Assembly: GCA_945861315.1 (NCBI GenBank)
Contig: CAMAUB010000019.1
Coordinates: 1-13,651 of the forward strand
Source: Chlamydia trachomatis
GTDB lineage: Bacteria > Chlamydiota > Chlamydiia > Chlamydiales > JAAKFR01
Direction of reading: 5' to 3'
Length of the DNA stretch: 13,651 bases
In this document: positions 1 through 13,517 of the stretch, in pieces
How the letters are laid out: the number at the start of each line of letters is the position of its first letter
How positions within the stretch are numbered: the stretch's first letter is position 1
Made by a program: the position numbers and the translations under genes
Notes under the pieces: model-generated
The model's input: the letters and a program-made list of their open reading frames with translations, nothing else
Database searches by the model: none
Told to the model about the DNA's origin: nothing

Positions 1-130
1 AGATTGATACCCTCTGGTTACGCGAAAGCACCCGGGGTTTAATGATCCCAAGTTGATCAATATTTCTAATATTAACCGACTTGTGATCATTAAACCGCGG
101 GGCTTTGGCGCAACCATAAAATATCAATCT
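1..130. repeat. Large imperfect palindrome E1
   Basis: Bases 1-64 are the imperfect reverse complement of 68-130, with a 3-base centre. By hand alignment about 52 of 64 columns match, with one gap. The outermost 9 bases (AGATTGATA / TATCAATCT) pair perfectly and appear to mark the ends. Each arm carries one copy of a GC-rich core: 21-47 on the plus strand and 85-111 on the minus strand, the latter reading AAAGCCCCGCGGTTTAATG. The same core recurs in palindromes E2 (11495-11587) and E3 (12579-12749). There is no coding potential. It lies downstream of dnaA, and its left end may extend beyond the window. Its function is unknown; it resembles a small non-autonomous mobile element or a structured repeat. 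Confidence 0.8.
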
Positions 131-276
131 AAATTTAATCGACTATAAAATTGCCTTTTTTGGCATCTTTGTGCCAAAATTTTTCGACTATGTGATCACA
201 CATGCTCTCAAAATTTTGACACAAATCTGCACAAAAAATGCTAATTTTATCAAACAAAGCGAATTTCGAAAGAGAT
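131..276. other. Intergenic region downstream of dnaA
   Basis: This AT-rich gap between palindrome E1 and the dnaA stop codon has no supported gene. It holds the weak hairpin at 158-184, a perfect 10-base palindrome TGTGATCACA at 191-200, and two copies of TCGACTAT (139-146 and 184-191). I looked for DnaA boxes (TTATCCACA-like) and saw no convincing match. Reading frames that cross it on the minus strand are shadows running into dnaA. Confidence 0.5.
158..184 (+). terminator. Possible intrinsic terminator, plus strand
   Basis: An 8-bp stem (TTTTGGCA at 158-165, TGCCAAAA at 172-179) with a 6-base loop is followed by TTTTT. On the plus strand this has terminator form and would serve a gene to the left of the window. 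On the minus strand the stem is followed by A and G, so it would not end dnaA transcription well. The stem has only four G-C pairs, so it is weak. Confidence 0.35.
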
Positions 277-1617
277 CTATTGCAGAAGTGAGAGGACCCC
301 TTTGACAGAGCCGGAAATTTCGTGGTTTTTGGTGTCGAGCCCTTTTTGGATTTGACGCACTGATGCCATAACCGTGGAGTGATCTCTGGAGAAAATATCT
401 CCAATTTTCATGTAAGGGAGTTGGAGTTTGTCGCGGCAAAGATGCATCGCAATTTGACGTGGAAGAGCGCATTCTCGCGCCTGTGACTTGCTTAGAATAT
501 CATCCATCCGAATGCCATAGTATTCTGCAACGGTTCGAATAATTTTGCCAGGTGTTAGCTCTGCTTTCTCTTCTTCTTGGATAAGGTCTGCAAGAATGTG
601 ACGCACTCTTTCAATTGTTAAGGGGCCGCCTGGGCTTAGGTGGGTGCGCAGCATGAGTGCTTCGATGCCTCGAACAAGCCCCTTGAGATTGCCTGAAAAT
701 ATCTCAAGAAGGAAATCAATGATTTGTTCATCAAGGTGGAAGGAGGCTTTTTTAATTTTTTGGATGAGTACTGCACGCATTTTTTCTTGATCAAGCATTT
801 GTAGAGGGACAATAATACCCCACTCAAAGCGACTTACAAGGCGAGGTTCGATATATTTGAGCTCTCCAGGGGAGCAGTTTGCACTGAGGATAATTTGCTT
901 TCCCTCAACATGGAGCGTATTAAAGGTGTGAAAGAACTCTTCTTGTGTGGCGCTTTTACGAGAGAAAATTTCGATATCATCGATGATGAGGGCATCAACA
1001 TTGCGGTACGCTCTTCTAAAGGTTTGCATCTCACCAGTTCTAATTGCTTTGACAACGTGTTCTGTAAACGTATCAGCGCGTACGTAAATGACTTTGAGTC
1101 CTCTTGCTCTCATAGCAGTTGCAGAGGCCATGAGAAGATGGCTTTTGCCTGTGCCGCTTCGTCCAAAAAGGTAGATAGGATTGAAACAGAGCATCCCTTC
1201 AGTTGGCTCACACGCCTCTTTGAGCAGCTTGTGGGCAAGCAAGTTGTTTTGTGAGGTGACAAAAGTGTCAAGAGTTGAGTTTGGATCAAGCTCATCAAAG
1301 CTAAGAGAGAATAGGGGAGTTTTGGGCAGAGAAGGGTCGGGTTTTTTGCGCCGTTTTTTCGACTTCTCCTCTTCACTCTCAACTGTAGCAATTGCTACGT
1401 GCACTTTGATTTGTTTATTGTTATTATTTGAAAGACGCATTTGCACGCGATGACGCATATGTTCTTCAAACCAAATAGCTTTGAATGAATCAGGCGCCTC
1501 TAAATAGAGGTTGCAGGCGTCAAAACGGGCAATTTTTAGGGGGCGAAGCCATTTATCGACAATCTCCTTCCCAAGTTCTTGCTCTTGCCTTGTTAAAAAC
1601 TCTTCCCAAGCTCTCAT
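277..1617 (-). CDS. dnaA: Chromosomal replication initiator DnaA
   Basis: DnaA is an AAA+ ATPase that binds the origin and melts DNA to start replication. This 446-residue protein has all four domains. Domain I is at about 1-75, beginning MRAWEEFL, and a short charged linker follows at 80-105. The AAA+ core spans about 110-345, with Walker A GRSGTGKS (152-159), Walker B IIDDI (211-215) and the arginine-finger region LVSRFEWG (260-267). The DNA-binding domain IV lies at about 350-446, with the signature GDIFSRDHSTV near 406-416. The usual second T of RDHTTV is S here. An AGGGTA ribosome-binding site lies 6-11 bases upstream of the ATG. Chlamydiota usually carry two dnaA genes; the neighbour yidC points to the copy called dnaA1 in Chlamydia, an inference from remembered gene order. 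yidC is 38 bases upstream on the same strand, so the two are probably co-transcribed. Confidence 0.95.
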   Translation of the reverse strand: MRAWEEFLTRQEQELGKEIVDKWLRPLKIARFDACNLYLEAPDSFKAIWFEEHMRHRVQMRLSNNNNKQIKVHVAIATVESEEEKSKKRRKKPDPSLPKTPLFSLSFDELDPNSTLDTFVTSQNNLLAHKLLKEACEPTEGMLCFNPIYLFGRSGTGKSHLLMASATAMRARGLKVIYVRADTFTEHVVKAIRTGEMQTFRRAYRNVDALIIDDIEIFSRKSATQEEFFHTFNTLHVEGKQIILSANCSPGELKYIEPRLVSRFEWGIIVPLQMLDQEKMRAVLIQKIKKASFHLDEQIIDFLLEIFSGNLKGLVRGIEALMLRTHLSPGGPLTIERVRHILADLIQEEEKAELTPGKIIRTVAEYYGIRMDDILSKSQARECALPRQIAMHLCRDKLQLPYMKIGDIFSRDHSTVMASVRQIQKGLDTKNHEISGSVKGVLSLLQ

Positions 1618-1655
1618 AGATCTACCCTAATAGCTTTTAGTAGGAATTATTTCTA

Positions 1656-4034
1656 CTATTTTTTTATCGGAGTGGTAATTAATTCGGGTTTGTCCCCTTT
1701 TTTGTCCAAAATTCTGTTGGTGAACCACTGTTGTAAGATACCAAGCAACATAGATGAGAACCAGTAGAGGTTTAGCCCCGATGGGAAATTGTAGAACATG
1801 ACTGTGAAAATAACGGTCATGATCAATCCCATAGATTTTTGCTGACGTTGTTGGTCACTCATCAGAGCTGGATCTTTAGGAGCTCCAGCACTTGAGATGC
1901 GTTGTTGTAAGAACATCACTCCACCTAAGAGGAATGGAAGTAGATGGAACTGGGTTCCTAAAAAGAAGATGGGTGCTTTCCATGAGAAGAGTACGTCTGG
2001 GGCAGTTAGATTGTCGATCCATCCCGGAATGAAGCTAGCTCCACGCAATTGAAATGAAGATTTGAGTAGATCAAACATTGCGATAAGAAAGGGAAGTTGG
2101 ATCAAAATTGGAACGCAACCCATAAAAGGGTTGACCTTCTTATCTCGATAAATCTGCATGATCTCCATCTGAGCGCGCTTTGGATCTTTTTTGTGCTTTT
2201 TTTGGATCGCTTGAATCGTAGGGGTAAGCTTTTGCATGCGGCGCATGGATTTGATTGACCACGCATTTAATGGGTAGAGAACAAGTCTTAAAAAAACGGT
2301 TAGCAAGATGATAGAGATACCCCATGAGCCTGTGATCATGTGAAAAAACTGCATCACAACAAAAAGGAGCTTAGCAAATGGTTTGGATATGAATGAGAGC
2401 CAGCCGTAGAACGTGCGCGCTGAGGAGTAGTCTGGGTTATAGCCTGTCGCTTTATCTGTAAAAATTCGATCAACAGTTTTCAAAGTCTTCTCTTCAAATG
2501 CACCTGAATAGAGGCGAAATGAAGAGGTTCCTCCGGAGGTGGGTAGAGGAAGTAAAACTTCGTATCCTGGGTACTTTGCTGGGGGGTAGGGTTGATATTT
2601 TGGATCGATCACAGCTAGTTGTGTTGGAACAGTGGTTCCTGGAATAGCAATCGCTTTATATCCCTCTCCAACTGGTTTGAGTGGGTCTAAAATCACACCA
2701 AGATAGCCGTTTGAGACAAGTATCCAGTCAGGACGCACCGAACTTGAAGAGATCACCTCTCCTTGTTTGGGTAGTCCAAGCTTATCAACTTCACCCTTCC
2801 CTTTACGGATGGAGCGGTATTGGATGCGGGGAGATGAACTATTGGACATGATCTCAACTTCAGGAACACCAGAACCAATCCAAAGGCCACGTGCATCCCC
2901 TTCAACACGCACATCAAGGTCAAATGTGTAGGGAGCTGCTTTTGGCGCAAGTGTGTAAACTTTAGTGATCTTACGATGAGGTTGTTCTGCAACGAATATG
3001 ATGCGTTCTTTTGAAAATTCAGTCACGCTATAGACTAGCTCAGCCATCTCAGGATAGTCTGAGACAATATTTGTTGCGTAGTACTGAGCGGGGATGTTGA
3101 CTTGGCTATTTTTAAGCACAATTCCCCGTCTAATCAAAGGGTAGTAGCCGCCAATCTTTCCAATGGTGTGGGGTTCAGATTGACCGGGTGTATAGTAGGG
3201 GTGAGCTGGAAAGTGTGCATTTGCAACAGAGTCTTCAATAATATCACGTCCAAAGCCAATTTGATTGACGACGCTCTTCTGATTTTTATCACTACGCAGG
3301 GGAAGATTAATTTCAGCTAAAGCTCCACCAATATTGGAGAAGGCAAGCTGAATGGTGTCATTTTCAAGTACGTAGTATTTTTGGGTTTGATCTACTTGGG
3401 CAACAGGAGCTGTTTTGATCAGAGCGGTGAAAACAGGAAGGTCTTGCATTGAAATGAAAACTCTTCCACGCCACTCGTAAAAGCCGGCAGGCAGCCATGT
3501 TGAACCTGATTTATAAAGAGCTAGAGCGTTGGACTTTATGGGATCTTTAAGAAAGCTGACAGCTCCATTGTTGTATTCCGCAAAATGAATGGTCGCCACT
3601 CCCTCATCAAAAGTGATTAGTTGAAGGTCAGTACTACCAGAGAGGGGAAGGTGGGCTATTTCAAGAGAGGGAGAGGCGTCTGCAGAATAGAGCACTGGAC
3701 CACCGATCACTGGATTTTCTGTCATGAGCTTAAGCTCTTTGCCCCCATAGTTCAGAGAAGTTGGTTGTGGCCGCTCCCAGGATAGTGTGAGAAGATTTTG
3801 TCCCACTAAGAGCGCTTGTTGTCCACCATCTAGTTGGACAATGGGTAAATCTGACGCTTTGGCTGTTCGAACTGCGATCTCTGCATCTAAGTGAACTTGG
3901 CTTTGAGTTGCAAGTGCCTTTTGCTCGACAAAGCTCTCTCGATTTTTTTGGTCTCGTTGATAACTAAAAAAAATGTTTAACCCAAAAAAGACAACAGTCA
4001 CTAGGAGTACATAAAGGATGGTACGTGCATTCAT
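1656..4034 (-). CDS. yidC: Membrane protein insertase YidC, long chlamydial type
   Basis: YidC inserts and folds inner-membrane proteins, with or without SecYEG. From the chosen start MNARTILYV the protein is 792 residues, far longer than the roughly 550 of E. coli YidC; I recall a similar length in Chlamydia. It has an N-terminal membrane segment (5-23) and a very large periplasmic domain (about 24-543). The conserved insertase core at the C-terminus starts with a helix at about 555-589 containing the conserved groove arginine (R583, in FLRLVLYP). A basic cytoplasmic loop follows at about 612-625, then helices at 638-657, 687-710 and 735-770, the last with NFPSGLNLYW. An upstream in-frame ATG (4052) would add MLCYFV; the later start is preferred because it places MNAR directly before the hydrophobic segment. 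Neither start has a clear Shine-Dalgarno. dnaA follows 38 bases downstream. Confidence 0.95.
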   Translation of the reverse strand: MNARTILYVLLVTVVFFGLNIFFSYQRDQKNRESFVEQKALATQSQVHLDAEIAVRTAKASDLPIVQLDGGQQALLVGQNLLTLSWERPQPTSLNYGGKELKLMTENPVIGGPVLYSADASPSLEIAHLPLSGSTDLQLITFDEGVATIHFAEYNNGAVSFLKDPIKSNALALYKSGSTWLPAGFYEWRGRVFISMQDLPVFTALIKTAPVAQVDQTQKYYVLENDTIQLAFSNIGGALAEINLPLRSDKNQKSVVNQIGFGRDIIEDSVANAHFPAHPYYTPGQSEPHTIGKIGGYYPLIRRGIVLKNSQVNIPAQYYATNIVSDYPEMAELVYSVTEFSKERIIFVAEQPHRKITKVYTLAPKAAPYTFDLDVRVEGDARGLWIGSGVPEVEIMSNSSSPRIQYRSIRKGKGEVDKLGLPKQGEVISSSSVRPDWILVSNGYLGVILDPLKPVGEGYKAIAIPGTTVPTQLAVIDPKYQPYPPAKYPGYEVLLPLPTSGGTSSFRLYSGAFEEKTLKTVDRIFTDKATGYNPDYSSARTFYGWLSFISKPFAKLLFVVMQFFHMITGSWGISIILLTVFLRLVLYPLNAWSIKSMRRMQKLTPTIQAIQKKHKKDPKRAQMEIMQIYRDKKVNPFMGCVPILIQLPFLIAMFDLLKSSFQLRGASFIPGWIDNLTAPDVLFSWKAPIFFLGTQFHLLPFLLGGVMFLQQRISSAGAPKDPALMSDQQRQQKSMGLIMTVIFTVMFYNFPSGLNLYWFSSMLLGILQQWFTNRILDKKGDKPELITTPIKK

Positions 4035-4065
4035 AACGAAATAACATAGCAAAGTATGGATTTAC

Positions 4066-4094
4066 TTGACATTCGAAATTTTTTTTGTTCGAAT
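4066..4094 (+). promoter_or_regulatory. Possible promoter overlapped by TTCGAA inverted repeat
   Basis: TTGACA at 4066-4071 is a perfect -35 box. Seventeen bases later TCGAAT (4089-4094) matches four of six -10 positions. An inverted repeat, ATTCGAA (4071-4077) and TTCGAAT (4088-4094), fills exactly the spacer and -10, separated by an AT tract, as an operator would. Transcription would start about 1-3 bases before the ATG at 4103, giving a nearly leaderless mRNA, which fits the absence of a Shine-Dalgarno there. The site lies between divergent yidC and the TPR-kinase-ligA operon, so it could control either. Assignment is inference. Confidence 0.35.
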
Positions 4095-4102
4095 GACATA
4101 GC

Positions 4103-4935
4103 ATGAGAATCATTATACTACTCTTTTGTTTATCAGTTGCTAAACTTGACGCTCTTACATTTGATGAGGTAAAAAAAGAACTTCTAACTTGTCAGAACTT
4201 GTTAGAAGATAATCCCAAAAATGCAGAGGCTCACTATCGGTTGGCGATAGCCTATTATATTGATCAGGAGTTAGATGAAGCATTTAAACATTTTCTTCTA
4301 GCTCTTGACACTGTGGAAACTAAAAAACCACGTTCTTTAGATAAATGTCGTGAAGCGATTGACTTCTATGTTTCACAAGCTGGAAGTGATCCTATCCGAG
4401 CGGCAACACAATTACTTACTCGTTATAAGGATAATACTTCAAAAGAGATGGCCTTTATCTTATCTATGTCGTATGCAAACTTAGGGGAGTATGGAACTTT
4501 CTTTAAAGACTTCTTTGAAGGTTTTCCTTATTATTCAGAATCATTTTTAGCGTATAAGACGCGCGGCATTTTAGCTCTGCGTTTAGCTCAACATGAAAAA
4601 GAGCAAAGACAAAGTTCTTGCTATCGGCAGAAGGCGTTTGAGCATCTTGAAGCGGCACTAGCAAGCTACCCTTACGATGCTAGTCTCTATAAAGTCTTGA
4701 TTTTTCTTGCAAAAGAGGACAATAATGACGCACTTATAGCTAACTATTTGCAAAAGATAGTTGAGCACACTGTGAAGATTGCACGTGCAGATATTTATCT
4801 ATATGTGCGTGAGGCGGTAACATTAGATGAACTTGATATTGCGCAAAAGATGATTAATCAGGCAAAAGTGTACTATGAATATAGCCGTGCACTAGTTGCG
4901 GCTCAAGACTATTTAAATCAACATCGAGAAGGACT

Positions 4936-4939
<4 letters not shown>
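4103..4939 (+). CDS. Exported TPR-like protein of unknown function
   Basis: I do not recognise the family of this 278-residue protein. Residues 1-17 (MRIIILLFCLSVAKLDA) look like a short signal peptide, so it is probably exported. Residues 25-70 form a helical pair with TPR spacing (NPKNAEAHYRLAIAYY then LDEAFKHFLLAL), and a similar helical pattern recurs around 175-200 (AFEHLEAALASYPYDASLYKVL). The whole mature chain is predicted helical and probably forms a TPR-like scaffold for protein contacts. Its stop overlaps the start of the next gene as ATGA (4936-4939), so translation is probably coupled to the Pkn1-like protein, and a shared pathway is likely. No Shine-Dalgarno is evident before the ATG, which would fit the near-leaderless promoter upstream. 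A lipoprotein is unlikely because no lipobox cysteine follows the hydrophobic stretch. Confidence 0.75.
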
Positions 4940-9701
<4,762 letters not shown>

Positions 9702-9731
9702 CGTATAAGTATTATAAAATAAAATGCTATA

Positions 9732-11033
9732 TTAGATCAAAGCTAAAAAAGTTTGATGACTATAACCATTTAAAGTAACTTTTTGAACTGTCCCAATCAA
9801 AGAGTCATCTCCCTCTAAGATCACATTACGCCAACACCTAGTGAGCGCTTTTAGGTGCTTTTGGTCTTTATTACGCCTCTCGATAAGCACCTCGACCCTC
9901 TCTCCTAGCTTATTTTGCATCAGCTCAAAAGAGATCTCTTGCTGGAGGGCAAGTAGTCTTTGTAGGCGATCATTTTTCACCTCTTCAGGGATATCGTCGC
10001 GCCATCTCTTAGCAGGAGTGCCATTTCGAGGGCTATAGGTATAGAGAAAGGCATTGGCATAGCGCACTTGGCGCATCGCTTCCATTGTCTCTTGAAACTC
10101 TTCTTCCGTCTCAGTTGGGAAGCCCACAATCATGTCAGTGCCAAGCTCAACACCTGGAATGATCTCTCGAAGATCGGCAACCTTCTGCATATACTCTTCT
10201 TTTGTATAGATACGGTGCATCTTGCGAAGAATGCGAGATGAGCCAGCTTGAAGAGGAAAATGGACGTGTTCACACAAAGAGTCAAGGTCGCGAATCGCCT
10301 CCATAAGCTCTCTTGTGATGTCTACGGGGTGAGAGGTAAGAAAACGCACTCGATTAACACCTTCAATCTTATCGAGTTGATAGAGTAGATCGTGGAAAAG
10401 ACAGTTCCATTGTGGCTGATCTTTCCCAAAACTGTTTACATTTTGGCCAAGTAGTGTGATTTCCTTGTATCCCTCATCAGCTAATTTACGGCACTCCTCT
10501 ACAATACTAACAGCAGAGCGCGACACCTCTTTTCCACGTGTGTAGGGGACAACACAGTAGGTACAGTACTTATCACACCCTCTAATAATTGAGACAAAAG
10601 CTTTGTGTTTGTTTTGTCGCTTAGCTCCAATATAGTCAAGCTCTTGGCTAAAGGTGTCATCTGTACGCAAGGTTTGCTGGTGTGTTGTTGTCACCTCATC
10701 TAACACTGCATCTAAGTCGTGGATATTACTTGTTCCTAAAACAAAATCTATATGGGGGAGTTTGCGAAAAAGCGTCTCTTTTTTTGCATTGGCCATACAC
10801 CCAGTCACACCGATGATCTTTCCTCTCTTCGCTTTTCGTCCAAGTTGACCTAGTTTTCCCATCACTTTTCTCTCCGCTAAATCGCGAATCGAACAGGTGT
10901 TGAAAATCAAAAGATCAGCCTCTTCCTCTTGCTGAGTCTGAGTGAGACCACGTTTTGTTAAAATGCCAGCCATGACCTCGGTATCAAGCTCATTCATCTG
11001 ACAACCGTAGGTGCGCAAATAAAATTTTTTCAT
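9732..11033 (-). CDS. miaB: tRNA-2-methylthio-N6-dimethylallyladenosine synthase MiaB
   Basis: MiaB is a radical-SAM methylthiotransferase that converts i6A37 to ms2i6A37 in tRNAs reading codons that start with U. The 433-residue protein has the N-terminal UPF0004 domain starting MKKFYLRTYGCQMN, with three cysteines for the auxiliary iron-sulfur cluster (C11, C47, C79). The radical-SAM motif RGCDKYCTYC follows (C153, C157, C160), then VPYTRGKEVSR, a motif of this subfamily. LLGQNVNSFG, HFPLQAGSSRIL and DMIVGFPTETEEEF follow in the usual order, and a TRAM RNA-binding domain ends the protein (about 370-433). GGAAG lies about 7 bases upstream of the ATG. It is divergent from the HemJ/CopD-like gene and followed 30 bases later by the unrecognised membrane protein on the same strand. 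Confidence 0.96.
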   Translation of the reverse strand: MKKFYLRTYGCQMNELDTEVMAGILTKRGLTQTQQEEEADLLIFNTCSIRDLAERKVMGKLGQLGRKAKRGKIIGVTGCMANAKKETLFRKLPHIDFVLGTSNIHDLDAVLDEVTTTHQQTLRTDDTFSQELDYIGAKRQNKHKAFVSIIRGCDKYCTYCVVPYTRGKEVSRSAVSIVEECRKLADEGYKEITLLGQNVNSFGKDQPQWNCLFHDLLYQLDKIEGVNRVRFLTSHPVDITRELMEAIRDLDSLCEHVHFPLQAGSSRILRKMHRIYTKEEYMQKVADLREIIPGVELGTDMIVGFPTETEEEFQETMEAMRQVRYANAFLYTYSPRNGTPAKRWRDDIPEEVKNDRLQRLLALQQEISFELMQNKLGERVEVLIERRNKDQKHLKALTRCWRNVILEGDDSLIGTVQKVTLNGYSHQTFLALI

Positions 11034-11078
11034 TCTTCTTCCATTTAAAAGGCAGTCATCCTATCGTATTGAGTTCTT

Positions 11079-11495
11079 ATGGTGCTACTGAAATTTTTCC
11101 ACGTTCTTTTCATTTTTCTCTGGATAGGAAGCTTATTAACCGTCACCGGTTTCATGGCTCATCAAAAGGAGAGTAGTAAAGAATTGTCTCGCCTTCTCAA
11201 AAGGATTTATCTCTCTGTAGAACTTCCCTCTATGTGCTTGGCTATTCTTTTTGGAGTTGTCCTGCTTTTTACAAAAACAGATATCAATTTCAAGGCTCCT
11301 TGGCTCCATATTAAGCTCACTTTTGCTTTTCTGCTCATTGTTTGCGATATCATCTGTGGTGCTCTAGTGGGTCATTTACAGCAGCGCGCAGCTTGCGCAG
11401 GAAAGATTGGACACCTGTTTTTACACTATTTATCCCTCCTCTTTCTAGTGGCAGTCCTACTCGCGATTTATTACTTGAAACCACAAATGACATAA
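11079..11495 (+). CDS. HemJ/CopD-like small integral membrane protein
   Basis: This 138-residue protein is almost entirely four membrane helices: about 5-27 (FFHVLFIFLWIGSLLTVTGF), 47-65, 75-97 and 110-133. The pattern matches the HemJ/CopD superfamily: an N-terminal helix with His followed by Trp-Ile-Gly (H8, FLWIGSL), then PSMCLAILFGVVLLF, PWLHIKLTFAFLL and a C-terminal helix ending in YYLKP. HemJ oxidises protoporphyrinogen IX in heme synthesis; CopD relatives are linked to copper. The WLHIK segment and the ending favour HemJ, but the Arg-containing stretch after helix 1 of typical HemJ is replaced by VTGFMAHQ, so activity is uncertain. No good Shine-Dalgarno precedes the ATG. The gene is divergent from miaB with a 45-base gap. 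Its stop codon shares its last base with hairpin E2. Confidence 0.65.
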   Translation: MVLLKFFHVLFIFLWIGSLLTVTGFMAHQKESSKELSRLLKRIYLSVELPSMCLAILFGVVLLFTKTDINFKAPWLHIKLTFAFLLIVCDIICGALVGHLQQRAACAGKIGHLFLHYLSLLFLVAVLLAIYYLKPQMT

Positions 11496-11587
11496 TACCC
11501 AAACAATTTGAATAATTGGATTTCGGCTGCGTCAAAGCCCCGGGCTTGAACGCAGCCGAAATCCAATTATTCAAATTGTTTGGGTAT
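11495..11587. repeat. Perfect 38-bp inverted repeat E2 with core in the loop
   Basis: Bases 11495-11532 and 11550-11587 are exact reverse complements over 38 bp, around a 17-base centre. The centre (11533-11549) and the innermost arm bases make up one copy of the core seen in E1 and E3, CAAAGCCCCGGGCTTGAACG. The centre is itself nearly self-complementary, so the fold could continue inward. There is no T-tract after either arm, so it is not a standard terminator, although a transcript would form a very stable hairpin. It begins at the last base of the HemJ/CopD-like stop codon and ends 17 bases before the rplM promoter. Lack of any arm mismatch suggests recent insertion or active maintenance. 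Confidence 0.92.
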
Positions 11588-11603
11588 AAAAGAATCTTTT
11601 AAC

Positions 11604-11632
11604 TTGGCAAAAATACTCAAGAATTTTATGAT
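11604..11632 (+). promoter_or_regulatory. Sigma70-type promoter of rplM-rpsI
   Basis: TTGGCA (11604-11609) and TATGAT (11627-11632) each match the -35 and -10 consensus at five of six positions with the optimal 17-base spacing. Transcription would begin near 11639, leaving a leader of about 20 bases that contains the rplM ribosome-binding site. The perfect hairpin E2 ends 17 bases upstream of the -35 box. Confidence 0.75.
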
Positions 11633-11659
11633 GTCTGCTCTAATAAGAAAGGAAGTCAA

Positions 11660-12106
11660 ATGAAAAGAAAGAAAGAAACAACAACCACATTCGTTCGAAA
11701 AGAAGATGTGTCACTCAAGTGGTATATTTTTGATGCAAAAGGTAAAACGTTAGGTCGTTTTTGCTGCGAGGTTGCAAAAGTTTTAAGAGGGAAGCATAAG
11801 CCAGATTTCACTCCATATATTGACACAGGTGATGGTGTTATTGTCGTTAATGCAGAGCAAATCAAAGTGACCGGAGCTAAAGAAGCTCAAAAGATCTATA
11901 GGCACTATACCGGACACATTGGTGGACTTAGAGAAATTCCTTACAGAACGATGCAAGAGAAGCATCCAGAAAGAATTATTGAGCGCGCGGTGAAAGGCAT
12001 GATGCCAAAATCACGTCTAGGGCACCAACAGCTGCGTAAACTTAGAATCTTCAAAGGTGAAGAACACTCGCTAGAAGCACAAAAACCGGTTAAAGTAGAA
12101 CTATGA
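11660..12106 (+). CDS. rplM: 50S ribosomal protein L13
   Basis: L13 is an early-assembling protein of the large ribosomal subunit. The 148-residue length is normal. Diagnostic stretches are [13 protein letters not shown] near the N-terminus, [24 protein letters not shown], the [13 protein letters not shown] loop, and [14 protein letters not shown] near 110-123. The first 15 residues (Thr/Lys-rich) are a short extension compared with the E. coli protein. AAAGGAAG ends 4 bases before the ATG and is a strong Shine-Dalgarno. It is transcribed from the TTGGCA/TATGAT promoter just upstream. Its stop overlaps the rpsI start (ATGA at 12103-12106), so the two are translationally coupled, as expected for the conserved rplM-rpsI pair. 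Confidence 0.98.
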
Positions 12107-12501
12107 AAAATAAAATTGAAGAGACAGTAGCGACAGGAAGAAGAAAACGTGCAGTATCTAGTGTCAGACTAAGACCTGGAACTGGTAAGATTGATGTCAA
12201 CGGACGTGAATTTGACCAATACTTCCCTGCTAAAGTGCAAAGAACAATTATTTTAGAACCTCTCAGCGATTTAAATGCTGTTGAGAACTACGATCTCATC
12301 ATCCGTGCGAACGGTGGTGGTATTGAAGGTCAAGTGATTGCCACTCGCCTAGGAATAGCTAGAGCGCTAGTCAAAGAGAGTGAAGATCGCCGCCACGACC
12401 TAAAAGTTAAGGGTTTCCTAACCCGCGATCCTCGAAAGAAAGAGCGTAAGAAATACGGCCACAAAAAAGCCCGCAAGAGTTTTCAATTCTCCAAGCGTTA
12501 A
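12103..12501 (+). CDS. rpsI: 30S ribosomal protein S9
   Basis: S9 is a small-subunit head protein whose C-terminal tail reaches the P-site tRNA. The 132 residues carry the family hallmarks: [14 protein letters not shown] near the start, the [10 protein letters not shown] turn, a central [19 protein letters not shown], and a very basic C-terminus with [14 protein letters not shown] ending in the invariant SKR. Start ATG overlaps the rplM stop. A strong intrinsic terminator follows 41 bases after the stop codon, closing the two-gene operon. Confidence 0.98.
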
Positions 12502-12542
12502 GTACATGGACTTCCCCCTCCTCCTTTACCTTGGAGACATTG

Positions 12543-12577
12543 CCCCTGCCTTCTCGCGAAGGCAGGGGATTTCTTTT
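12543..12577 (+). terminator. Intrinsic terminator of rplM-rpsI
   Basis: Stem CCCCTGCCTTC (12543-12553) pairs perfectly with GAAGGCAGGGG (12558-12568) around a 4-base TCGC loop, followed by ATTTCTTTT. The 11-bp GC-rich stem and T-tract are textbook for Rho-independent termination. It lies immediately before palindrome E3. Confidence 0.93.
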
Positions 12578-12578
12578 A

Positions 12579-12749
12579 CTTAGGGCTCGTAAAACAATAA
12601 CATAGATGACTGGACTAGTGCGGAAGCTCCCGCGATTGAACGATCAAAATGGGGTTCGTATGAGGTCAATACTAACCTCATTTCGATCGTTCAATCCAGG
12701 GGTTTTGGTGCCGTCCAGTCATCCATGTTATTGTTTTACGGGCCCTTAG
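12579..12749. repeat. Large imperfect palindrome E3
   Basis: The 171-base element is near-symmetrical. CTTAGGGCTCG at the left pairs with the right end at 12739-12749. The outer arms, about 35 bases (GTAAAACAATAACATAGATG on the left), differ at only a few positions. Each arm then carries the GC-rich core: plus strand 12618-12645 (GCTCCCGCGATTGAACGATC) and minus strand 12685-12712 (AACCCCTGGATTGAACGATC). An inner arm with ATGGGGTT / AACCTCAT follows around a short centre. Architecture (outer arm, core, inner arm, centre) is the same as E1, but outer and inner arm sequences are different. It has no coding potential and starts right after the rpsI terminator T-tract. Confidence 0.88.
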
Positions 12750-12818
12750 AAACTCAGCTTCATAAAATATTTCTTATTTTTTTAAAAAAAGTCTGACGAT
12801 TTACAAAGTATTAATAAT

Positions 12819-13517
12819 ATGATAAACTTGTTACTTAATAACCCGAATTACTTAATAACCCGAAACTCGGTGGGTGGTATGGTTTATACATCAAATAGTC
12901 ACGAGATTTATGCAAGAAAAGGACACTATCACAGCCCTCGCCAAGAAAATGCGTGTGCTAATGACGGCTCACTCATCACACTACTTGCAATCGCCACAGT
13001 TGCTATGGTTGCCGTTACTTCAGCAGCGTACTTCGGAGTCTTTGCAGTTAACTCGGCAAGCCTAATAGGATGCTACATTGAAACAAGTGTTATTGGCTTA
13101 GCTTTGATTGTTGCTATTGCCTCACGTTGCATCGAAGCTTCTAAACATCAAGCTGATCCTAATACTAGACCTCTTTCCAGCTATGATGATATGTACGAAG
13201 GAATGGTCAAAGATTATAGTGATTCCTCTGCTTCCCCTACTAGAACTCTTATCCGTAATTATGATATGAGTGTAACAATTACGTCAGAAGATGGAAGAAC
13301 AATTAATATACCGTACGTAGAAGGAATGGTCGAAGATTATAATTATTCCCCCTTTACACACTGCATAGTGTGCGATAGGGGTAAGTTTATGCACGTGATC
13401 CGCCTAAGTGAAGATAAAAAGATAATGAAGTATAGGGTTGAGACATCGCCTAATTTTGAGTTACTATTTTCAAATAGGGACAATTTTCAACTTCCGTCTC
13501 TAGTTTATACTAATTGA
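12819..13517 (+). CDS. Inc-like membrane protein with bilobed hydrophobic hairpin
   Basis: I do not recognise a named family for this 232-residue protein. Residues 51-72 (LITLLAIATVAMVAVTSAAY) and 80-102 (ASLIGCYIETSVIGLALIVA) form two adjacent membrane helices joined by a very short turn, the bilobed hydrophobic domain typical of chlamydial inclusion membrane proteins. Both flanks would then face the same side, with about 130 residues after the hairpin. The C-terminal part contains an internal repeat: EGMVKDYSDS at 127-136 and EGMVEDYNYS at 168-177. No Sec signal precedes the hairpin, which fits type III export as in Inc proteins, but that is inference. The start is uncertain: the ATG at 12819 lacks a Shine-Dalgarno and has a frame-shifting duplication just after it. 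The in-frame ATG at 12879 (212 residues), with GGTGG close upstream, is a good alternative. It is a single gene between palindromes E3 and E4. Confidence 0.68.
   Translation: MINLLLNNPNYLITRNSVGGMVYTSNSHEIYARKGHYHSPRQENACANDGSLITLLAIATVAMVAVTSAAYFGVFAVNSASLIGCYIETSVIGLALIVAIASRCIEASKHQADPNTRPLSSYDDMYEGMVKDYSDSSASPTRTLIRNYDMSVTITSEDGRTINIPYVEGMVEDYNYSPFTHCIVCDRGKFMHVIRLSEDKKIMKYRVETSPNFELLFSNRDNFQLPSLVYTN
12831..12864 (+). repeat. 17-bp tandem duplication
   Basis: TTACTTAATAACCCGAA occurs twice in direct succession (12831-12847 and 12848-12864) with no mismatch. It falls within the first codons of the Inc-like reading frame if the ATG at 12819 is used. Because 17 is not a multiple of three, the two copies are read in different frames. 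Consistent with a recent slippage event, or the repeat lies in an untranslated leader. Confidence 0.9.
13197..13341 (+). repeat. Internal coding repeat in the Inc-like gene
   Basis: GAAGGAATGGTCAAAGATTA at 13197-13216 (plus TA) recurs at 13320-13341 with one change (GTCAAAG to GTCGAAG), so 21 of 22 bases match. Both copies are in the same reading frame and encode EGMV(K/E)DY followed by Ser/Pro-rich residues. Near identity at DNA level indicates recent internal duplication or a constraint on the motif. Confidence 0.85.

Follow-up and report, generated by a model that had tools for sequence, protein, structure and literature searches.

Palindromes of Chlamydiota that look like MITEs with one conserved centre and changing transposon ends

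What kind of element carries one and the same core within palindromic arms that do not resemble each other? The window, i.e., the whole stretch of 13,651 nucleotides that was analysed, raises this question with three hairpins, E1, E2 and E3. A sequence-only reading had described them as long palindromes with unlike arms and one common core, of which E1 and E3 have a copy in each arm and E2 a single, central one. The positions bear this out, and the comparison of the folds with shuffled sequences shows strong hairpins. Their extents had to be revised, as E1 runs to about position 145 instead of 130, E2 proper covers 11496-11586 and E3 proper covers 12583-12745 (Table 1). The neighbouring genes, which we take from their translations to be dnaA-like, a membrane-protein insertase, ligA, miaB-like, rplM and rpsI, look ordinary. 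These palindromes very probably belong to a family of hairpin MITEs of Chlamydiota, about 165 bp long and presumably moved in trans by IS630 or ISAzo13 transposases, whose central module has repeatedly been given new ends. The support is at the level of sequence (shared terminal inverted repeats (TIRs), target duplications, copy number, shared modules and kept mismatches).

Table 1. Hairpin elements of the window, their cores and their flanks
Feature	Positions	Strand	Remarks
E1	1..145	.	TA-type end TATAGTCGATT...; left ~15 bp beyond window start
E1 flank, TA	146-147		
E1 core, R-type arm	21..47	+	GCGAAAGCACCCGGGG...; aligned to covariance model
E1 core, L-type arm	85..111	-	GCGCCAAAGCCCCGCGGTTTAATGATC; exact match to core pattern
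E2	11496..11586	.	91-bp short form, IS630-type ends TACCCAAACAATTTGAATAATTGG, one core
E2 single core	11529..11553	+	
E3	12583..12745	.	Complete 163-bp element, ISAzo13-type ends (GGGCTCGTAAAACAATAAC...)
E3 left target duplication TTA	12580..12582	.	
E3 right target duplication TTA	12746..12748	.	
E3 core, R-type arm	12618..12645	+	
E3 core, L-type arm	12685..12712	-	CCAAAACCCCTGGATTGAACGATC

Folded as single-stranded DNA, E1 (over 1-130), E2 (over 11490-11592) and E3 (over 12576-12752) reach z values of -11.4, -17.1 and -14.3, respectively, and in each case none of 200 dinucleotide shuffles was as good. A covariance model trained on 38 related elements, E3 included and E1 not, gives E1 91.4 bits (E 4.8e-28) and E2 48.5 bits, the latter nearly all from pairing alone. 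As the window starts inside E1, its right-arm stretch 131-145 has no partner on the left; the E1 terminus is also found on an element in L020. E2 is flanked by AA and TA, so that its TA duplication is imperfect. The exact 21-base terminus of E3 (TTAGGGCTCGTAAAACAATAA) is found again in two other genomes, G151 and G174. Two other repeats of the window can be mentioned. An imperfect inverted repeat with 39-nt arms, 77% complementary, adjoins E1 (156-237) and has a weak covariance-model score (E 0.0008) and no core. Two 30-base segments, 90% identical (13197-13226 and 13320-13349), both lie within the ORF 12819-13517.

The core belongs to a family found in many Chlamydiota. With at most 3 mismatches, it was found in 40 of the 232 Chlamydiota genomes searched, with 116 matches in G120, 50 in G093 and 45 in G122 (the source genomes are MAGs, and some counts may contain orientation duplicates); the reversed pattern, used as a control, has no match in any of the 232. 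An exact scan of one genome per species (84,980 species) returned 37 stretches, of which 35 are in records titled Chlamydiota. Another is in a record titled Verrucomicrobia (L035), whose genome, G002, falls within the phylum searched from G001. The last one (L021, titled Proteobacteria) has one core-like match and no palindrome and was taken as chance. No exact core match was found in viral contigs, and blastn with one G120 element as query gave no match in plasmids. No Rfam family reached its curated cut-off, the three matches up to E 1 (31.1, 25.1 and 24.4 bits) being far below the curated scores of 96, 245 and 65 bits. Under strict filters, with 16 candidates scored per genome, the covariance model has matches in 100 of the 232 Chlamydiota genomes, a rough figure as coreless long hairpins also score, and in none of 150 genomes from the phylum of G003.

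The elements are non-coding and measure 91-172 bp, about 165 bp when complete. Arm symmetry has a median of 90% over 171 readings. The proposed picture of a family with many copies, in which a conserved core lies within symmetrical but mutually unrelated arms, is supported. The elements were found by their left core, the conservation of which is thus partly a matter of ascertainment; the genome searches made no use of the right core. The statement that all copies are intergenic is correct for E1-E3 and does not extend to the family, for which 28 of 109 element readings fall within mechanical ORFs at least 90 aa long. Several core matches of G120 are located at most 100 bases from a contig start, where repeats that interrupt an assembly would be expected, and the elements probably explain some contig breaks in metagenome assemblies of environmental Chlamydiota. 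Copy numbers and donors all come from Chlamydiota genomes other than that of the window.

Target duplications and gaps devoid of the element in relatives both argue for mobility. Among 242 candidates of G120, 40 were scored, and the first 40 matches listed have 94-100% identity to a 166-base query, most or all of which they cover. At the fetched loci, the element has the form TACCC...GGGTA and a usual length of 160-161 bp. The 67 strand-wise readings, which represent about 33 copies, have TA on the left in 64 cases and on the right in 63; beyond TA, the flanks have no visible likeness. The copy L133 is inserted in the inner stem of another copy, where ...GAATCTAGCCCC... became ...GAATCTA[element]TAGCCCC..., and this repeated TA shows the duplication directly. 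Orthologous gaps around rplM and rpsI, the comparison of which had been suggested, were read in eight relatives (G049, G050, G051, G054, G055, G056, G057 and G058; RplM identity 73-80%). An E2-like element is absent in all seven relatives with 200 bp readable before rplM (best palindrome score 8-15.5), G050 being left out as 85 bp were readable. In the same way, none of the eight has an E3-like element within 260 bp after rpsI, with scores of 10.5-38.5 versus 76 for E3. Three of them, G050, G056 and G058 (L341, L338 and L335), carry their own inverted repeats just after rpsI, near the place of E3, with a palindrome score of about 38.

The outer arms resemble the ends of transposons. The elements of G122 begin with CTAGTGCTCTGTAAACTTAATTTTTGC, and their 26-bp end also precedes, with one mismatch, a transposase gene in L152. 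This transposase is spread over two overlapping frames that match NF033545 (IS630) with 143 and 62 bits (cut-off 100), PF13358 being matched too. In L175, the unchanged element end stands before the same gene start, the gene being cut by the contig end. The IS630 transposon L204 (G080) encodes an open 353-aa transposase (NF033545, 223 bits) between the TIRs TATACCGAACGTGATTCAAAAATTGGC and TATACCGAAGTAAATTCAAAAATTGGC, which are of the TATACC(N)7TTCAAAAATTGG type, the end type of E2. The 1.3-kb ISAzo13 transposon L300 (G116), whose transposase is split by a stop into two pieces (NF033519, 204 and 324 bits, cut-off 200), has the ends, each read inwards, GGGGCTGTGAAAGAATAAGTTGAAC after TAA and GGTACTGTGAAAAAATAACTTGAAC after TTA; these ends and their TWA flanks are those of the E3 type. 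This transposon emerged from a search for the terminus. A search for PF01609 (DDE_Tnp_1) as the donor of TWA ends was abandoned, a script finding no matching end pair at 30 loci in 10 of 13 genomes.

The ISAzo13-type end pattern is found, with at most one mismatch, in 40 of the 232 genomes (a single match in some), and a control pattern has a single match in each of four genomes. No donor transposon was seen for the end type of E1, and no PF13358 match passed in G001, G083, G093, G112 and G143, which have several or many elements; MAGs lose repeats. IS630 duplicates TA and ISAzo13 duplicates three bases, and the TA and TWA flanks seen agree with these sizes. The palindromes look like MITE-like non-autonomous transposons whose outer arms are transposon ends, and IS630 or ISAzo13 transposases would move them in trans. 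The sequence-only reading had judged the elements unlike an ordinary MITE; this is not supported, as the arms start with TIRs such as those of IS630- and ISAzo13-family transposons. The arms do differ, but they look unrelated because one window holds three end types.

Closely related centres are found between very different ends. For example, the centres of L068 (TWA ends) and of L080 or L076 (TA ends) are 95% identical and their ends 36-47% alike, while L158 (CTAG type) and L091 (TATACC type) share centres that are 93% identical between ends that are 39-42% alike, the values for ends being raw ones, without a shuffled baseline. A tree of 47 centres was obtained from 135 readings, by dropping 10 (7 unclassed, 3 with unlike classes) and thinning the rest. 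On this tree, which is poorly resolved (85 columns, 10 of 44 inner branches starred), the three end types need 14 changes, for a minimum of 2; shuffled end labels need 16.4 on average and are as low as observed in 11 of 200 cases. Even if the starred branches only are considered, at least 3 (TWA), 5 (CTAG) and 6 (TA) changes are required. End labels come from simple letter rules, which leave 18 of 131 readings unclassable and make a few CTAG labels doubtful (e.g., L072); the contrast between TA and TWA is independent of the latter. Near-identical centres between unrelated ends, and end types scattered over the tree, suggest that the core is a shared cargo whose transposon ends have repeatedly changed. 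L116, with a left arm like that of L120 and a right arm like that of L088 (79% alike), is a possible recombinant.

Other arrangements were encountered along the way. In L087 (G105), the right arm gives way, directly behind the core linker, to a stretch containing TACCATTTCCCGAAATT, which recurs in L212 (also G105). ISAzo13-ended hairpins of 159-172 bp have two further centres in common, modules B and C (L301, L306, L309 and L323 from G128, G150 and G164; L287 and L329 from G050 and G232), which suggests that the architecture with an exchangeable centre is more general. In L342 and L343 (G051), TATACCCC-type elements lie amid a larger imperfect palindrome, 331-335 bp long, as though they had entered the loop of a repeat from a different family; in L344, a third copy, palindrome and element end together.

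Two rivals explain the arms in another way. Copying of the arms from the insertion context, a possibility raised by the sequence-only reading, could proceed by fold-back synthesis at a mobile core and would account for arms that are symmetrical but not alike from one locus of the window to the next. It is hardly credible, since the outer 27 bp or so match transposon ends, G120 copies with like arms have differing flanks outside TA, and no such arm is visible in the readable gaps of the relatives. The elements could also be ordinary MITEs of one lineage, whose TIRs drifted with their diverging transposases and whose core is conserved only because it is recent. The ends of the TATACC group, which vary gradually around TATACC(N)7TTCAAAA(A/T)TTGG, are what such drift would give. 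However, the duplication has two bases in TA and three in TWA, a change that indicates a transposase of another family, and centres that are 95% identical bear wholly different ends, which leaves this explanation very improbable.

E2, with its single core, looks like an internal-deletion derivative rather than an element of another design. One-core palindromes of about 92-94 bp with ISAzo13-type ends are also found in G093 (L001 and L299) and in G151 (L307); L001 and L299 are probably the same copy, and end spacing indicates a second G093 copy on C135. Several internally deleted forms are present in G122. A 144/145-bp form lacking one half of the inner stem is found at four fetched loci (L279-L282), and the full module is therefore not needed for spread. 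Forms of 73 bp with almost no core, at two loci, may be deletions in place.

The stem has changed while remaining a stem. Among the 38 aligned elements, 28 of 40 stem pairs have changes on both sides with pairing kept, and the summed table holds 186 double versus 22 single changes, with 83 unpaired (cells count sequences, not events). Imperfect pairs amount to 27 G-T cells versus 35 A-C cells; without an excess of G-T over A-C, nothing points to a strand-specific RNA, and arm-to-arm DNA copying or a folded-DNA function fits the stem changes better. Three imperfections are kept among the 38 elements: a C.C is present in 34, a G.G in 29 and an additional A in 36. Among 131 readings of the core, 95 are asymmetric L/R, 7 symmetric L/L, 16 unclassed and 13 R/L, the last of which may be copies read from the opposite strand. 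The C/G difference is also retained by a diverged module in G144 and G174 (GCGCGAAATCGCC...ATCGACGATC versus GCGCCAAATCAACC...ATCGACGATC). Since these imperfections have persisted while the paired positions around them changed, folded-DNA recognition or palindrome breaking appears more likely than neutral cargo as the use of the core, and the mismatched hairpin may be recognised as folded DNA.

Long perfect palindromes are unstable, being exposed to hairpin nucleases and stalled replication. The core could thus be kept only as a palindrome breaker, corrected copies being lost, and the concerted pair changes, which suggest arm-to-arm copying, yet leave three imperfections in place, are in line with this. 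Any mismatch would serve this purpose, yet the same ones and their flanking letters are kept, even the C/G difference of the diverged module, and symmetrical L/L cores do exist; such a role as the sole reason for the core seems rather unlikely. It is still less probable that the hairpin has a role as RNA, be it a processing site, a small RNA or a terminator, which would make insertions tolerable or useful, as could be thought from the Correia elements of Neisseria, cleaved by RNase III in mRNA according to the available text of PMC10969869. The lack of G-U excess and of an Rfam family at cut-off both speak against an RNA, although the first test would miss a function exerted by both strands. 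Nor do the elements favour gaps at gene 3' ends, divergent gaps being if anything over-represented (22 elements versus 114 neighbouring ORF pairs; 39 versus 392 for co-directional and 14 versus 119 for convergent gaps).

In the preferred reading, that of a hairpin MITE family with exchanged ends, each element starts with a TIR and a short linker, followed by core L, by the inner stem on either side of the loop, and then by core R, a second linker and the closing TIR. The TIRs are of the IS630 kind (TA target) or of the ISAzo13 kind (TAA/TTA target), and the corresponding transposases would act in trans. The central module of about 100 bp, with its mismatched core, would be passed on as a unit and joined repeatedly to new pairs of ends. 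These could be acquired by recombination in the shared core or in the linkers, followed by copying from arm to arm within the palindrome. The mismatched hairpin would be kept because folded DNA, or escape from the instability of perfect palindromes, aids survival of the element. We hold more tentatively, as a possible extension, that the core module is a satellite indifferent to the transposase, a folded hairpin recognised by a factor of the host or of an element, which persists by changing ends (at least two kinds of IS630, and ISAzo13) and has sister modules A', B and C, hairpins of like architecture, in the phylum.

How does this family compare with known systems? Like MITEs, its elements are short, non-coding and multi-copy, with a target duplication and with TIRs shared with autonomous transposons (L152/L175, L204 and L300); these transposons come from other genomes than that of the window, the L300 frame having a stop and L152 being in two frames. 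In a stricter definition, the interior is a deletion remnant of the partner, and this is not what was found, no core being present in the stretches of L152, L204 and L300 read after the shared end. RUP, ERIC, Nezha and similar elements are IS630/Tc1-type MITEs of bacteria, with which the chlamydial family shares its small size, lack of coding capacity, many copies, TA duplication and TIRs common with an IS630 transposon. In contrast to them, its interior is conserved and common to elements with the ends of other transposons. E3 has the L300-like ends and TWA flanks of ISAzo13-family transposons but encodes nothing, and a literature search combining ISAzo13 and MITE found no such element in the available text of the one pertinent paper (PMC9208149). 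According to the same partial text, IS are present in only 5.7% of the Chlamydiae genomes of the set (PMC9208149).

The REP/RAYT palindrome measures 20-40 bp in the part of PMC3733652 that is available. The chlamydial elements differ from it, complete ones being of about 165 bp with TA/TWA duplications. The attC sites of integrons have R and L boxes at the outer ends of the folded strand, beside cassettes and an integrase. By its letters, GTTGAAC/GTTCAAC fits GTTRRRY/RYYYAAC, but it lies mid-stem and in the opposite order. CRISPR and attC readings were set aside. The 67-base period of core matches in G120 fits the spacing of the two core arms of one element. Literature searches, whose coverage leaves out much of the subscription literature, found no title or abstract that describes the chlamydial element, and the text of a review of prokaryotic MITEs (PMC10969869) contains none of 'chlamyd', 'IS630' and 'ISAzo13'. 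Closer in architecture are the Correia repeat enclosed elements (CREE) of Neisseria, which, in the accessible text of PMC2649163, are short elements that have inverted repeats and a core of conserved structure. The likeness is one of architecture alone, taken from partial descriptions. We know of no exchange of ends for CREE.

As a rule, a non-autonomous transposon depends on the transposase of one parent and disappears together with it. The SINEs that have a conserved central domain, CORE-SINEs among them, are eukaryotic, RNA-mediated retroposons. They resemble the chlamydial elements in having a conserved centre with different outer parts, as for HaSE1 and HaSE2 in the available text of PMC3272025. 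In contrast to these RNA-mediated elements, the chlamydial ones are DNA hairpins, and their proposed movers are DDE transposases. The core is widespread and would serve to trace the recent activity of mobile DNA in environmental Chlamydiota. If the preferred reading is true, it would become testable how such parasites outlive their helper transposases. A conserved centre that has the ends of different transposase families and even retains its mismatches would then be a bacterial counterpart of CORE-SINEs, and the unusual point of these elements seems to be their modularity, one conserved hairpin being able to ride on several unrelated transposases.
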